From contig JARIGM010000023.1 in the NCBI GenBank assembly GCA_029288865.1, forward strand, positions 67,039 through 109,778: a stretch of DNA of 42,740 nt, read 5' to 3'. Positions 16,632 through 42,740 of this stretch are shown one piece after another. The translations under genes and the position numbers were made by a program. The stretch is from Candidatus Kaiserbacteria bacterium. Its GTDB lineage: Bacteria; Patescibacteriota; Minisyncoccia; Phycocordibacterales; Phycocordibacteraceae. How positions within the stretch are numbered: position 1 is the stretch's first letter; every line of letters begins with the position of its first letter. Under the pieces are notes generated by a model, which saw nothing but the letters and a program-made list of their open reading frames with translations, did not search any database and was not told where the DNA came from.

Positions 16632-17722
<1,091 letters not shown>

Positions 17723-17769: not shown

Positions 17770-20700
17770 TTATGGACTCGTCGTGCTCGCGTCAGAGGTA
17801 GTATCGGGTACGGGATCGGGTGAAACTGTGGTATCCGTTTCGGGCGTTGAAGATGCGGTTTCCGAAGAAGATCCGTCGGAATTTGTCGAGGCAGGTTCGG
17901 TTGTGCTTGCAGTCGTCACACTTGACGTCGTAACCATTACTGATCCTGTCTGTCCTGATTCATCCAATACTTTCTGAAGCTGATCGCCCGTGATGCATAC
18001 ATATGAACCATCAGCTTTCTTGACGCAAACATTATCGAAGCGGCCTGTTACGGCAGTGACCACTTGTGTGGTAATAGATTGCGCGAGCTGTGCAGATTCC
18101 TTCATCAGTTCTTGGACTGCCACGATGAGCGGTGCGATGAGACCTGGATAATCGACGGTAAGCGTGCCGTCAGGGGTAAGTGCAGTCGGACTTGAGGTCG
18201 AGACGAGGTTCGGGAACACACGCTGTACTTCCTGAGCGATGAGTCCAAACTGTTGTGCAGTGCCGCGGTTTGTGTCCGGCTTCCAATAGAACTGCACCGG
18301 TCGGAGTCCTGCGATCCCTGCAAGCGTTGAAGACGCATCGAGTTGAACAACATCTTGTTTCAGTCGCTGATCAGATGCCGTACAAGACACAAGTCCATTT
18401 GCATTCGTGGTAAAGCCAGAACAATTCAAGTACCCATCGAGGGTAAGGTTCGCTGTTGAGCCTCCCACCTCAAATAGAGTCGCTGGCGAGGTAGTGCTGA
18501 TACCGATATTTCCGGATTGCTTGATCGTAAAAGTCTTGGTGGTGCCGTTGATAAATTGAACATCCGCTCGAGCGTGCAAGCCCAAGCTTGGCAGACCCCC
18601 CGCCGTATCGTCATATTGGAAGATTCCGTTCTGCGGATTACCGTCTGAGACACGACGGAATGCGATACCGCTCGTGATGTTCGAAAGGCCGAGGCCAGAC
18701 ATTGCTGTCGCTTGGGAACCAATCAAGGTCGAGGCATTGGCTCCGGTCCATACTTCAAATTTATTTCCTGGTGAGGTCGTACCGATTCCTACGTTCCCTG
18801 CCGTCGTGATGAACATTGCTGAGCCTGCAGATGTCGGAGCGATGCTGCTTATGGAGTTCGGAGAGAACCCGATGCCGCCATATGCAGCAATCTGCAACGT
18901 GCCATTTGTTATGTCATTCTCGCGAGTGAGTCCGAATATTCCAACGTTACTCGCCGTATAACCCAGCAGTCCACTACCTGCGCTACCTATATTATCAAAG
19001 CGAATGTTTCCATAAACATCGAGCGCCTCAAGCGGACTCGTCGTAGCGATACCAACCTTACCCTTAAGAAGGGTCGTCGTAATACTGTCATTACCGAACA
19101 CGGCTTGATTGCTTGCGTAGACGTGAGCGTTATAGCCCACTGCGATGCTATTGGTAAGCGCTGAAGTAGACGCGATGCTGGAATCACGGCTTGCATTAGC
19201 TCCGATAAACGTCATGAAGGTATCAATGACTGATTGATTATCAGCGACCGTACCATATCCAGCTTGGTATCCGTAGGCCGTATTATTACTTGCCGTCGTA
19301 TTTCCGCGGAGCGCATTCACCCCGCTCGCAGTGTTATTACTTCCTGTACTACTGTTATAAAGCGCTGCATATCCAGTCGCGACATTCGCGCTTCCTGTTG
19401 TATTCCCATACAAAGCGTTCGCTCCGGAAGAGGTATTATTGGCACCGGTCGTGTTCGAATACATCGAGCTGATTCCCACTGCCGAATTTAAAGAACCACT
19501 AGTGTTGTTATAGAGCGCAGAGTAGCCGATTCCTGTGTTGTTGCTTCCGACCGATGAGTAGAGTGAGAATGTTCCTACTGCCGTGTTGTTGTTACCTATT
19601 CCGTAATAGCCGCGGAGCGCCTTATAACCGACACCGACGCTACCAGACGTCGTCGTAGCATATTCCATCGCTCCTTGTCCGACCGATGTGTTGTTGAGCA
19701 TGGCCGCATTCACGCTTGATCCGGCACCACTTCCCACTAACAGGTTCGTACTAGTTGCGTTCAATGACGCGACATACGGTGCAATATTGGACAATGTAAG
19801 AATATTGGATGCTGTTGATGTATCCCAATTATGGGCAGCAATATAATTTGCAACCTGTTTAGCTACCAGCGCGTAACCCGTAGTATTCAAATGTACGACG
19901 CTATCTGCGCGGAGTGATGTTGGAGGCACGTCATTGCTGATGTCGATGAGGTCTTGTGCCGTCGGTGTAATACCTGCATCTGTCAAGCCGTTCTGAACGA
20001 TGTACGAACGGATATCCAGATAATTATTCGGATAGGTAGCGGCAAGATACGCGTTGATCGCCATGATGGCCGTATAATTCGAGTTTCCGGACGGCTCGTT
20101 CGGCCCGTTCATGATCGACATGATGAGAAATCGTTGATGTCCCAGCGCCGCAACCATTGAGGCGATATTGGCTTCAACCGTTGCAGCATTCGTGAAATCG
20201 TTACGTCCTGACCATATGATGGTGTCGTAGGAATACTTATCGGGAGATGCAAGCATTCGTGAAGCGATCTGAGTACTTGTTTGTCCGCTGATACCGCCAT
20301 TGTACACATTGCGACCATTTAAAAGCCAAGAGAGTTGCTGGGGATATGTATAGGTGCCGCTTCCACCCTGGGTAAGACTGTCTCCCCATGCCGCAATATT
20401 GTATGCCCCCAAGTTTGACGTGCTGAGATACGTTAAGCCTAAGTTCGTGCGGGTCGTTGCGGCATCGCCCACATTCAGCGAACCACTGAGATAGCCATTC
20501 CCGTTGACTGAGAGACGTGCCGACGGACTTGTCGTGCCGATTCCCACGTTGCCTCCGGCAGTTGCCAGATAGGTAGATCCTGTAGAGGTAAACAACGTGG
20601 AGGAAGCCGCACCATTAAATTGCTGGAGGGCACTCCATGAATTTGCTGTAGTAGTCCCGAAGAGAAGCGAAAGTACATTCCCGCTTCGATTAAACGGATA

Positions 20701-21033
20701 GCTGAACGTAAGCGGCACCTCATACATACCAGCAAGAGCGGTCTGAGCACGAGTTGGTGTGAAATATAAGTTTGAAGTTCCTTCGTGTACGCCGTCTGTG
20801 GTGGTTGCGTACCAGACTGACGAATCCAATTTCCCCGCCACAGTATTCTGAAGGTTCGTCATGGCGCTAGTATCGATGCCACAGCTTGGATCGGTCGGAG
20901 CGCATGCAGGATCGAGCGTAGCACCTGGCGCATAGAGCGCTGCTTGTGCAGCGAGTGGCGTAATCAAAACGAAAAACGCTGCCAGCACCATGACTGGAAG
21001 CATACGTAAACGAGAAAGCCCGAACATACCCAT
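17770..21033 (-). CDS. Giant surface protein: signal peptide, SGNH hydrolase, YadA-head-like repeats, C-terminal peptidase S74
   Basis: 1087 residues from ATG 21031-21033, which has a TATGAT box six bases upstream; a GTG five codons further up is less likely. Positions below count from this ATG. A signal peptide (about 1-32, ending PLAAQA) is followed by a 'GNVGIGTTSP' module at 161. An SGNH/GDSL-like hydrolase at about 210-400 has Ser219 in WGDSLTQGG, GGISG, GRND (276-279) and His381 in DSVVHLNTTGY. Then come Asn/Gly/Ala/Thr-rich repeats (about 430-595) like YadA/Hep-Hag heads, three further GNVGI/GNIGI-type modules (near 658, 746 and 841), and a peptidase S74 intramolecular chaperone beginning ASDQRLKQD with the Ser887/Lys892 dyad. 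The protein ends in a Ser/Thr/Pro tail without an LPXTG or TM anchor. A trimeric, self-processed fibre is the family expectation. Confidence 0.85.
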   Translation of the reverse strand: MGMFGLSRLRMLPVMVLAAFFVLITPLAAQAALYAPGATLDPACAPTDPSCGIDTSAMTNLQNTVAGKLDSSVWYATTTDGVHEGTSNLYFTPTRAQTALAGMYEVPLTFSYPFNRSGNVLSLLFGTTTANSWSALQQFNGAASSTLFTSTGSTYLATAGGNVGIGTTSPSARLSVNGNGYLSGSLNVGDAATTRTNLGLTYLSTSNLGAYNIAAWGDSLTQGGSGTYTYPQQLSWLLNGRNVYNGGISGQTSTQIASRMLASPDKYSYDTIIWSGRNDFTNAATVEANIASMVAALGHQRFLIMSIMNGPNEPSGNSNYTAIMAINAYLAATYPNNYLDIRSYIVQNGLTDAGITPTAQDLIDISNDVPPTSLRADSVVHLNTTGYALVAKQVANYIAAHNWDTSTASNILTLSNIAPYVASLNATSTNLLVGSGAGSSVNAAMLNNTSVGQGAMEYATTTSGSVGVGYKALRGYYGIGNNNTAVGTFSLYSSVGSNNTGIGYSALYNNTSGSLNSAVGISSMYSNTTGANNTSSGANALYGNTTGSANVATGYAALYNSSTGSNNTASGVNALRGNTTASNNTAYGYQAGYGTVADNQSVIDTFMTFIGANASRDSSIASTSALTNSIAVGYNAHVYASNQAVFGNDSITTTLLKGKVGIATTSPLEALDVYGNIRFDNIGSAGSGLLGYTASNVGIFGLTRENDITNGTLQIAAYGGIGFSPNSISSIAPTSAGSAMFITTAGNVGIGTTSPGNKFEVWTGANASTLIGSQATAMSGLGLSNITSGIAFRRVSDGNPQNGIFQYDDTAGGLPSLGLHARADVQFINGTTKTFTIKQSGNIGISTTSPATLFEVGGSTANLTLDGYLNCSGFTTNANGLVSCTASDQRLKQDVVQLDASSTLAGIAGLRPVQFYWKPDTNRGTAQQFGLIAQEVQRVFPNLVSTSSPTALTPDGTLTVDYPGLIAPLIVAVQELMKESAQLAQSITTQVVTAVTGRFDNVCVKKADGSYVCITGDQLQKVLDESGQTGSVMVTTSSVTTASTTEPASTNSDGSSSETASSTPETDTTVSPDPVPDTTSDASTTSP

Positions 21034-21045: not shown

Positions 21046-21062
21046 CACTAAGGAATCAGACC

Positions 21063-21099: not shown

Positions 21100-21588
21100 C
21101 TACTTCTTTTTCTTAAGTGCTTCCACTTCGGCCAAGACTTTACGGATATCGTCTGCAAGCTGATCCAGATTACGTGCAGCTTCTTGCTCGCGTCGTTCTT
21201 CCTCGATCTCCTCTTCGTTGAGCTCTTCCAGGTCCTCCTGCATCTCTTCGACGTCTTCACTCATTTCTTCGAGATCTTCTTGCATTTCCTCGACATCTTC
21301 GCCGAGCTCTTCGACATCCTCTTGAATCTCATCAATGTCTTCCTCGACTTCGCGGAGACTCTCGGTGTTTCGGTTCACGCTGAACTGGATGAAGATCGCC
21401 AGATAAATCGCTTCGAGCGAGACGATGGTGTTCCAGACCAACAGCACAAGATCGCGCGGGAATACATTGCTCACTGTAAGAATTAAAAAACCTGCAAAGA
21501 TGCAAGAGTGCACCACCATGGACGGAACAGATCCGATCCAGCGAATGATGCCGTCTATGACGGTCGGTTTCTGTGGAGGCTTTGCCAT
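21100..21588 (-). CDS. Two-TM protein with long acidic coiled coil (DUF1003/iron-permease-like)
   Basis: 162 residues from ATG 21586-21588 (a GTG five codons upstream is possible). Hydrophobic helices lie at about 25-43 and 48-70, joined by NVFPRD; the second contains LVWNTIVSLEAIYLAIFIQFSVNRN, which resembles DUF1003 and low-affinity iron permease families (the 'SLEA...QNR' pattern). From about 73 to 135 there is a run of Glu/Asp-rich heptads (EEDIDEIQEDVEELGEDVEE and so on), with 21-base repeats visible in the DNA. The C terminus is KKKK. Iron transport is not supported by anything else here. It may act as a membrane-anchored coiled-coil spacer. Confidence 0.6.
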   Translation of the reverse strand: MAKPPQKPTVIDGIIRWIGSVPSMVVHSCIFAGFLILTVSNVFPRDLVLLVWNTIVSLEAIYLAIFIQFSVNRNTESLREVEEDIDEIQEDVEELGEDVEEMQEDLEEMSEDVEEMQEDLEELNEEEIEEERREQEAARNLDQLADDIRKVLAEVEALKKKK

Positions 21589-21651
21589 GACTTGACCGTA
21601 CACCCGTCCCGCAGCCCTGTCTACCTTTGTACGGGTATAAATCGTCTTAAA

Positions 21652-22950
21652 CTAAGACGCGAGATATTCTTTCACCGCTTCTGCGATCGTACGAACGATC
21701 GATTCGAATTTCTGTTCGTCTGGTTCAAGGAGCGTGAAGCGGAATCCGTACAGATCCGAGTTGAATCCCGACGAAAGCGGGACAAGACAGATACCTTTCG
21801 AGGCAAGCAAATAATATACAAAACGCTGATCCAGTTTTGCTTCCGTCAGCTTTGGCTCGATGATCTCGAACGCTTCAGGTGAAGTCGGGAGAGATTGTTG
21901 TGACGTGAGCGCACCTAGCTGAAAGACTGCTGTCATATAAAACGCACCGTGCGCATTGTGGATTTGTATCTGAGGAATCTCACCCAAGATCTTGCATGCG
22001 AGTTCAGATTTTGCAGCATATCGCTTCGTACGCTCAGCGAGGTACGGATAGTACCGCGGGTCTTGCATCACGACCGGCAGAACTTTTTGCGGAAGTGTCG
22101 TGGAGCACACTTCAAGCATCTTCGCTTCAATGATGGAGTGTGCGTATTTGTCAAAATTGGCATCCTTGTCGCGGTTGTAAAATTCGATCCAACCGCAGCG
22201 TGCGCCCGGCCACGGAAATTCTTTCGAGATGCCGCGCATCGCAATACCCGGCACATCTCCAATAACCGACGCGAGCTTGCGCATACTGCTTCCTTCATAC
22301 GCAAGGTTCGAATAAATCTCATCCGAAATCACCATCAGGTTGTATTTCTTTGCGAGGGTCACGATCGCCGAGATCGTCTCTTGCGGATAGACGAAACCGG
22401 TCGGATTATCTGGATTAATGATCAGGATGCCGGCGATCTCTGGATGCACGACGATCTTCGCTTCGAGCTCTTCTAGATCTGGTTCCCAGTTACGATTTGG
22501 ATCGAGTGAATAGCTGAGATGCACAGCATTACTGTGCGCGGCTTCTGCAGAGGAATGGGTGGAGTATGCGGGGTTTGGACCGATGATGCGAGCGCCTGGA
22601 TTCAAGTTACTATAGATGTTGGTGATGGCATCGCCAAGGCCGTTGAAGAACAAAATATCTTCGGCAGTGATCTGAATGCCTCCTTCGAGATTGCGTTCGC
22701 GAGCAATATACTCGCGTGTCTCTTCGAGACCTTTAGTTGGAGAATATGCGAAGCTTGAATTCTCAGCAGCGACACGTCCAACAATTTCGCGAATCCATTC
22801 AGGCACCTGTTCGCCTTTCGCAACGGGATCGCCGATATTCTCCCACACAACTGGCATACCGAGCGCCTCGATGCGCTTTCCCATACCGACGATCTGGCGA
22901 ATCTCGTACCGTAACTTGTCTGCGCCCGGATGGACTATCGGTGTCCGCAT
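21652..22950 (-). CDS. PLP-dependent aminotransferase class I/II
   Basis: 432 residues, fold type I. PLP-binding features in order are: NGLGDAITNIY (phosphate-side helix), Asn182 in NPDNPTG, Asp210 and Tyr213 in ISDEIYSNLAYEG, the Schiff-base Lys243 in GISKEFPWPGARCGW, and a C-terminal Arg in YGFRFTLLEP that normally binds the substrate carboxylate. It resembles the alanine/aspartate aminotransferase group; the substrate cannot be told from sequence. There are no amino-acid biosynthesis genes nearby. It is divergently oriented to mltG, with a 65-base shared upstream region and no Shine-Dalgarno. Confidence 0.88.
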   Translation of the reverse strand: MRTPIVHPGADKLRYEIRQIVGMGKRIEALGMPVVWENIGDPVAKGEQVPEWIREIVGRVAAENSSFAYSPTKGLEETREYIARERNLEGGIQITAEDILFFNGLGDAITNIYSNLNPGARIIGPNPAYSTHSSAEAAHSNAVHLSYSLDPNRNWEPDLEELEAKIVVHPEIAGILIINPDNPTGFVYPQETISAIVTLAKKYNLMVISDEIYSNLAYEGSSMRKLASVIGDVPGIAMRGISKEFPWPGARCGWIEFYNRDKDANFDKYAHSIIEAKMLEVCSTTLPQKVLPVVMQDPRYYPYLAERTKRYAAKSELACKILGEIPQIQIHNAHGAFYMTAVFQLGALTSQQSLPTSPEAFEIIEPKLTEAKLDQRFVYYLLASKGICLVPLSSGFNSDLYGFRFTLLEPDEQKFESIVRTIAEAVKEYLAS

Positions 22951-41871: not shown

Positions 41872-42740
41872 TTACGACAAATATTTTGTCCGGATCATGT
41901 TTTCAATGGTGGCACGATCACGGCCGTATGTGAGATACGACAGCTCGCGCAGGTCGTCTATCTGATCAGGATTTCCAGGGCCCAGATCTAATGTCTTGAT
42001 ATTAAAGGGTTTTTGCGGCACACCTCCTGCGAGGATGCGCACATAGGCGTTGCGGTTTTCGACATTAATGAAATCGGGCGCATCGAAAACCGGTGCGAAT
42101 TGCTTCGCAAAGAATTCACCATCCTCTTCACCCACGCGGAACACTGCCATGGACCCCACGTTTCCAAAGACTGCATCACGAATCTTCTCATCTATTTGCG
42201 CGAGGTACTGGTGAGCAATCGTAAGAGAAAGTTTGTACTTTCGAGCCTCCGAAAGAATACCTGGGATGGAATCTGTGGTGATGTTTTGGAACTCGTCGAT
42301 ATAGAAATAGAACGGCGGGAAGTTTCCGCGCGGATTATCCGCTCGGGAAAGTGCTGCCATGAAGAGCTTGCCGACGAGAATGAGACCGAGTAAGTTCGCA
42401 TTGCGCTCACCAAGACGTCCTTTCGAGAGATTCACGAGCAAGATCTTCTTGGTATCGATGACATTACGGAAATTGAACGATGAATTCTGCTGACCGATGA
42501 TCGGACGCATGAAGTCGTTTGCTGTGAAGTCGTCAAACTTGTTCGTGATGTACGGCACAATATTCTCGAGTGATGCATCGCCGCCTGCCTTCGTCGCGAT
42601 CTCGTTCCAGAACTGATTCACGACCGGATTCAGACTGCGTGAGAGTTTAAGTGCGCGGAAATTCGCATCGGACAGCACGCGTGCGATATCCATCATGGTC
42701 GAACCCGTTTCGGGATCTTCCATCACGAGCAATGTCGCAT
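41872..42740 (-). CDS. VirD4/TraG-like (type IV secretion coupling) ATPase, N terminus beyond the right edge
   Basis: Only the C-terminal 289 residues are seen; the frame continues to the window edge, so this is partial and the first visible Leu is not the start. The Walker B and following segment FYFYIDEFQNITTDSIPGI, ARKYKLSLTIAHQYLAQI (the Gln-containing sensor helix of HerA/VirB4/VirD4 ATPases) and GNVGSMAVFRVGEEDGEFFAKQF are clear. KILLVNLSKGRLGERNANLLG is another family block. These proteins are hexameric DNA or protein pumps at the membrane. In CPR they usually carry a DUF8128-like membrane module at the N terminus, which would lie outside this window. The C terminus YGRDRATIENMIRTKYLS is duplicated at 39817. 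Confidence 0.85.
   Translation of the reverse strand, partial: ATLLVMEDPETGSTMMDIARVLSDANFRALKLSRSLNPVVNQFWNEIATKAGGDASLENIVPYITNKFDDFTANDFMRPIIGQQNSSFNFRNVIDTKKILLVNLSKGRLGERNANLLGLILVGKLFMAALSRADNPRGNFPPFYFYIDEFQNITTDSIPGILSEARKYKLSLTIAHQYLAQIDEKIRDAVFGNVGSMAVFRVGEEDGEFFAKQFAPVFDAPDFINVENRNAYVRILAGGVPQKPFNIKTLDLGPGNPDQIDDLRELSYLTYGRDRATIENMIRTKYLS

Follow-up and report, generated by a model that had tools for sequence, protein, structure and literature searches.

A predicted secreted S74 fibre with an inserted phage-type SGNH hydrolase domain in a Candidatus Kaiserbacteria genome

Introduction

Host recognition and handling by ultra-small bacteria are largely unknown. The closest described counterparts of the protein reported here are the mosaic adhesive trimer (MAT) fibres of the predator Bdellovibrio bacteriovorus, which localise to the cell surface, cleave themselves at the serine of an SDxxxK motif, share a capping-loop consensus and bear a β-rich domain of about 130 residues after the signal peptide (PMC10769870). 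Their solved structures include entries 8OND, 8OJN/8ONB/8ONC, 8OML, 8ON4 and 8OL4 (PMC10769870). Further relatives occur in phages, which use enzyme modules of this kind to deacetylate the sugar coat of a target cell. Tail-fibre SGNH domains comparable to the one described below have been assayed and are active esterases (PMC13123978). In the literature that we searched, with few subscription journals covered, no paper deals with S74 fibres, MAT and SGNH types included, in this group of bacteria; each part of the present fibre is already known, and the SGNH–S74 combination is undescribed there.

Results

Anatomy of the fibre

We analysed a window of 42,740 nucleotides (the whole stretch of DNA under study) from a Candidatus Kaiserbacteria genome of 842 kb in 36 contigs. 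The open reading frame reported by the initial annotation, at 17770-21033 on the minus strand with 1087 residues, is real; an in-frame GTG at 21048 is a possible alternative start. Its parts, from the N terminus to the tail, are the following.

17770..21033, minus strand: whole fibre gene, open reading frame of 1087 aa, ATG at 21033
20941..21033, minus strand: signal peptide of residues 1-31, probably cut after AQA (sequence, by eye)
20881..20934, minus strand: two-Cys N-terminal motif YAPGATLDPACAPTDPSC (34-51), common to the C36 paralogue and genus mates
20506..20556, minus strand: first loop, VGIGTTSP (160-176), like a MAT-type capping loop (motif scan)
19828..20418, minus strand: SGNH/GDSL hydrolase domain (206-402; Pfam, alignment, predicted structure)
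20377..20379, minus strand: predicted nucleophile Ser219 in WGDSLTQG (motif and alignment)
20200..20208, minus strand: block III, Gly276-Arg277-Asn278 (motif and alignment)
19891..19905, minus strand: predicted catalytic Asp377-Ser-Val-Val-His381, x3 spacing (motif and alignment)
19114..19716, minus strand: 17-residue β-roll repeats (about 440-640; model and sequence)
19015..19056, minus strand: second loop, VGIATTSP (660-673; motif scan)
18751..18792, minus strand: third loop, VGIGTTSP (748-761; motif scan)
18466..18507, minus strand: fourth loop, IGISTTSP (843-856; motif scan)
18079..18375, minus strand: Peptidase_S74/intramolecular chaperone region (887-985; Pfam, alignment, profiles, model)
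18373..18375, minus strand: Ser887, predicted to be the catalytic Ser and to start the released C-terminal part
18358..18360, minus strand: Lys892 of the Ser-Lys dyad (alignment)
17773..18078, minus strand: tail (986-1087), with a helix end, a CVKKADGSYVC motif and a Ser/Thr-rich end

The VG-I/A-x-TTSP loops start at residues 163, 660, 748 and 843, where a shuffled protein is expected to yield 0.01. All four of the GNVGI-TTSP modules first described are present, but one of them precedes the SGNH domain and only three follow it. The repeats once called YadA-head-like also exist; their unit, however, is 17 residues long and the whole protein has no Pfam match to a YadA head or anchor profile up to E 1, so the protein resembles YadA in style only. 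A search of the protein against NCBIfam gave no match. The monomer model of residues 400-1010 has a pLDDT of 43 and was used only for the period of the roll and for the S74 match. As no anchor was found in the protein, it could be released; any anchor is more likely to be N-terminal, since cleavage at Ser887 would remove the C-terminal tail.

The S74 region and its kinship with MAT fibres

Pfam recognises Peptidase_S74 at residues 887-944 with E 1.9e-15 and 57.3 bits, against a curated cut-off of 22. Ser887 and Lys892 align with Ser587 and Lys592 of MyRF, in agreement with the dyad proposed initially, and the model of this part gives a fold-level match to MyRF (E 5e-4). The S-x4-K dyad is found in 25 out of 25 S74 domains of the clan read in the correct frame, a count from which L031 (wrong frame) was left out.

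A profile built from 20 of the group's S74 proteins (A4), which includes the C36 paralogue and excludes the window fibre, matches the MAT crystal structure 8OND at E 2.6e-16; it also reaches entries 8OJN/8ONB/8ONC, 8OML, 8ON4 and 8OL4, together with MyRF and phage tail fibres. The five-sequence profile of SGNH-bearing fibres (A8) reaches only 8OND among the MAT entries, weakly (E 5e-4). Used as the sole query, the window fibre matches no MAT entry, only 9SIJ, MyRF and one phage fibre. By sequence, its four loops closely resemble the MAT capping-loop pattern V-G-[G/N]-x-x-x-P-x-x-x-L. Because of these A4 matches and the resemblance of the capping loops, the S74 domain and the GNVGI modules can be seen as parts of one known kind of fibre.

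An S74 domain does sit on a secreted cellular protein here, as was first pointed out, but this is not exceptional: such domains occur in 62 of the 103 genomes of the family and in 87 of 197 sampled genomes of the order (44%), and Bdellovibrio has 13. The rare feature is the SGNH module, present in about 1% of the genomes of the order.

Among 20 S74 fibres of the group, SGNH is the only enzyme module that Pfam detects. Half of them (10/20) contain an Ig-like domain, placed after the self-cleavage site in the members read, and one (1/20) an intein-like domain. Several fibres, e.g. G091:C31 and G010:C19, have two tandem S74 domains about 130 residues apart. Two long ones, L142:1279-7119 (1947 aa) and L149:1594-8847 (2418 aa), combine an HTH_17 DNA-binding domain, a hydrophobic stretch, loops and S74, in an order that recalls the eukaryotic factor MyRF.

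The catalytic set and fold of the SGNH module

The inserted domain scores above the curated cut-off of Pfam Lipase_GDSL_2 (residues 216-389, E 6e-9). In a 36-sequence alignment of SGNH modules the catalytic Ser, Gly, Asn, Asp and His are invariant; in the window fibre they lie in WGDSLTQG (Ser219), GRND (Asn278) and ADSVVH (Asp377, His381), which bears out the hydrolase and the motifs named initially. The predicted structure (pLDDT 94.6) has the α/β/α fold of the superfamily (VIA Z 20.5 to 4RW0, rmsd 2.3 over 169). Among predicted viral structures it is matched best by tail fibres and minor tail proteins of phages, at TM 0.87-0.89; among the PDB matches listed, the best solved structures are GDSL enzymes, at TM up to about 0.71.

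The D-x3-H spacing, reported at first as a departure from the usual D-x2-H, is genuine and is a departure, but not a lone oddity: it is common to the window fibre, L080 (a Candidatus Yonathbacteria sequence) and L081 (on a contig binned as Pseudolabrys). The other 33 of the 36 sequences have D-x2-H, a common rather than strictly defining feature. As read from the alignment, the x3 spacing may mark a small group of the module, the kinship of whose three members is not settled by the tree.

One alternative is that the domain has lost catalysis here, or never had it, and serves the same fibre as a carbohydrate-binding tip. The spacing seen in only 3 of 36 homologues could weaken the catalytic triad, and phage receptor-binding modules may retain binding after loss of turnover. 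All five catalytic residues are nonetheless invariant, and three sequences diverged to 56-62% identity have kept the x3 spacing, which decay would not be expected to produce. We consider a purely binding role unlikely, and retain a putative esterase.

Phage relatives and a possible target

By sequence, the SGNH domain is related to fibres of the Rhodococcus phages ReqiPoco6 and ReqiPepy6, and its PDB relatives 9SIJ and 9SIM bear the name tail spike protein. On two environmental contigs from genuine phages the module lies downstream of virion genes, a major head protein and head-tail adaptor in one (L097) and baseplate genes in the other (L100); in the latter, roll repeats like those of the window fibre follow the SGNH domain. 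The tree of SGNH modules is poorly resolved at depth and gives no direction of transfer between phages and cells.

The explanation that we favour, and hold to be rather probable, is a secreted, MAT-like, self-processing fibre with an inserted phage-type SGNH esterase that acts on a polysaccharide of another cell. The protein would be exported through its signal peptide and trimerise on triple β-helix segments capped by the VG-x-x-x-x-P-x-x-x-L loops, and the C-terminal S74 chaperone would fold the trimer before cutting itself off ahead of Ser887. The esterase, of phage tail-fibre type, would have been inserted between the first loop and the β-roll, into a frame that is standard for the order. 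The fibre would then bind polysaccharide on the other cell, be it in the host envelope or in a shared matrix, and strip O-acetyl or other acyl groups from it. Trimer formation, self-cleavage, esterase activity, surface display and target are all proposed here by homology. Its relatives, and the way of life common among bacteria with such genomes, make a host-directed fibre probable; another bacterium as its target would be reasonable given the MAT fibres and the phage esterase fibres.

The same fibre might instead work on the coat of its producer or on a shared extracellular matrix, for nutrient release or biofilm adhesion. Free-living Bacteroidota, Verrucomicrobiota and Nitrospiria do have proteins with homologous SGNH modules. 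The 842-kb size of the genome, with the Patescibacteria-type lifestyle expected from it, speaks against such a role, and so do the closest relatives of the module by fold, which are host-binding fibres of phages, even if neither point identifies the target. A role away from any host has a minor share of our belief, and we keep to the esterase fibre directed at another cell.

Distribution and mosaic ancestry

Collection scans used a three-sequence SGNH alignment, as an eight-sequence set with diverse phages was too divergent. The module was detected in 1 of 105 genomes of the family, in 4 of 397 of the order, which belong to four different families, and in 1 of 379 genomes of a phylum sample. 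The search for the same architecture in other CPR genomes, proposed initially, gave a positive result: SGNH and S74 are combined in three other genomes of the order (L080, L086 and L160, the last with a short C-terminus).

Judged by sequence identity, the window fibre is a mosaic whose nearest relatives differ by part. Its S74 region is 69% identical to a same-genus fibre that the SGNH search did not match, its SGNH domain 61% to that of L080, from another family; the roll repeats reach about 32-37% with several proteins, and the tail 37% with the paralogue.

That paralogue (C36; L008:1906-5793) is the second SGNH–S74 fibre of the genome, with 1295 aa, the phage-type β insert and D-x2-H. A recent duplication is not supported for the two, whose SGNH domains are of different subtypes. 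We also discarded the idea that a paralogue-like ancestor lost the phage insert by deletion, since modules without an insert are widespread in phages and bacteria. The same genome encodes a 1039-aa secreted protein (L010:2119-5238) with an unrelated, more typical GDSL domain. By eye, this domain lies among SH3-like and ricin-like stretches, and the C-terminal part of the protein is glucanase-like.

Genomic setting

On one side of the fibre gene lies atpB of the F1F0-ATPase operon (16973-17722); on the other, at 21100-22950, are a DUF948-like gene and an aminotransferase. The neighbours also include D-Ala-D-Ala ligase and DNA repair genes. In a genus mate (G004, locus L059), 448 bases without a gene separate the DUF948 gene from atpB, so the site of the fibre can be empty.

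SGNH and S74 alike have tail-fibre families among their matches, as would be expected if the gene were a relic or a piece of an integrated phage. Contrary to a virion-type fibre lying among virion genes, the gene has only housekeeping neighbours, and those examined include no capsid or tail genes. The protein has a signal peptide, which virion fibres do not carry; the codon usage of the gene is ordinary for the window and not foreign; a second copy lies on another contig, and S74 fibres are frequent in the order. A prophage origin is accordingly very improbable. A binning or assembly artefact that placed a phage or foreign gene here, conceivable for a genome in 36 contigs, is more improbable still, given the conserved genes on both sides within one contig, a GC content of 0.508 against 0.517 for the window, the ordinary codon usage, the S74 identity to a genus mate and the same architecture elsewhere in the order. 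We reject both, and continue with a cellular, MAT-like esterase fibre.

Fibres on putative mobile elements

Bradyrhizobium manausense contig NZ_LJYG01000090.1 (L084:4314-9267, L130/L131) encodes a 1273-aa SGNH–S74 fibre whose N- and C-terminal motifs are those of the window group. The fibre gene apparently lies in a genomic island of this alphaproteobacterium, which has a genome of 9.1 Mb. Two transfer-type ATPases are encoded upstream of it, and leuA-type core genes are found about 9 kb downstream. The window genome encodes a homologue (38-40%) of one of the ATPases, and a gene cut off at the edge of the window (41872-42732) is 37% identical to a transfer-type ATPase of the island. Cross-phylum transfer of the fibre is possible, and the contig may also be an assembly chimera. 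The SGNH fibre of L081, cut by the contig end, adjoins a transfer-type ATPase and a similar replication-type gene; it could belong to a related element or to a misbinned contig.

Discussion

The fibre architecture, the completeness of both catalytic sets, the homologies and the mosaic ancestry are firm as features of the sequence. The protein is a concrete, expressible candidate for host contact in ultra-small bacteria. S74 fibres are common in its order, and their homologues include the surface fibres of a bacterial predator; some of them share an enzyme module with phage tail fibres. Predators, phages and symbionts therefore have a common pool of fibre parts. As a tentative extension, Patescibacteria-type episymbionts might use self-processing MAT-like trimeric fibres as organs of host contact and exchange phage-type enzyme modules by way of them. 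An esterase fibre might then open or remodel the acetylated polysaccharide of the host, and an integrated element might have carried the same type of SGNH fibre between this group and Rhizobiales.

Comparison with known systems

The SGNH esterases of phage tail fibres and tailspikes (ReqiPoco6, the G7C gp63.1 deacetylase, a Klebsiella prophage; PMC13123978) are of the same SGNH subtype by sequence and fold. Unlike them, the window fibre is not part of a virion and has a signal peptide. Its enzyme precedes the shaft, whereas most of the annotated phage fibres examined end in the enzyme, and it is devoid of the β insert of about 85 residues of the phage type, which the C36 paralogue keeps.

YadA-type trimeric autotransporter adhesins likewise have a β-roll of short NxxxG-like repeats; the fibre differs from them in its 17-residue unit and in carrying neither a YadA domain recognised by Pfam nor a membrane anchor domain. 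With the S74 auto-processing domains of K1F endosialidase, the T5 tail fibre and MyRF it shares the Ser-Lys dyad, but here S74 is followed by about 100 residues with a two-Cys motif and a Ser/Thr-rich end.

The nearest system is the S74 subgroup of the B. bacteriovorus MAT fibres, e.g. Bd3182 (PMC10769870). The window fibre departs from it by its SGNH hydrolase, a domain absent from the main text of PMC10769870, by the position of this enzyme near the N-terminus and not at the tip, by its roll repeats and 100-residue tail after S74, and by its different lineage. Both kinds have a signal peptide, a length near 1000 aa, a repeated capping-loop motif and a C-terminal S74 domain with SDxxxK; both are cellular, non-virion proteins, and they are joined by the homology of the family profile to the MAT structures.
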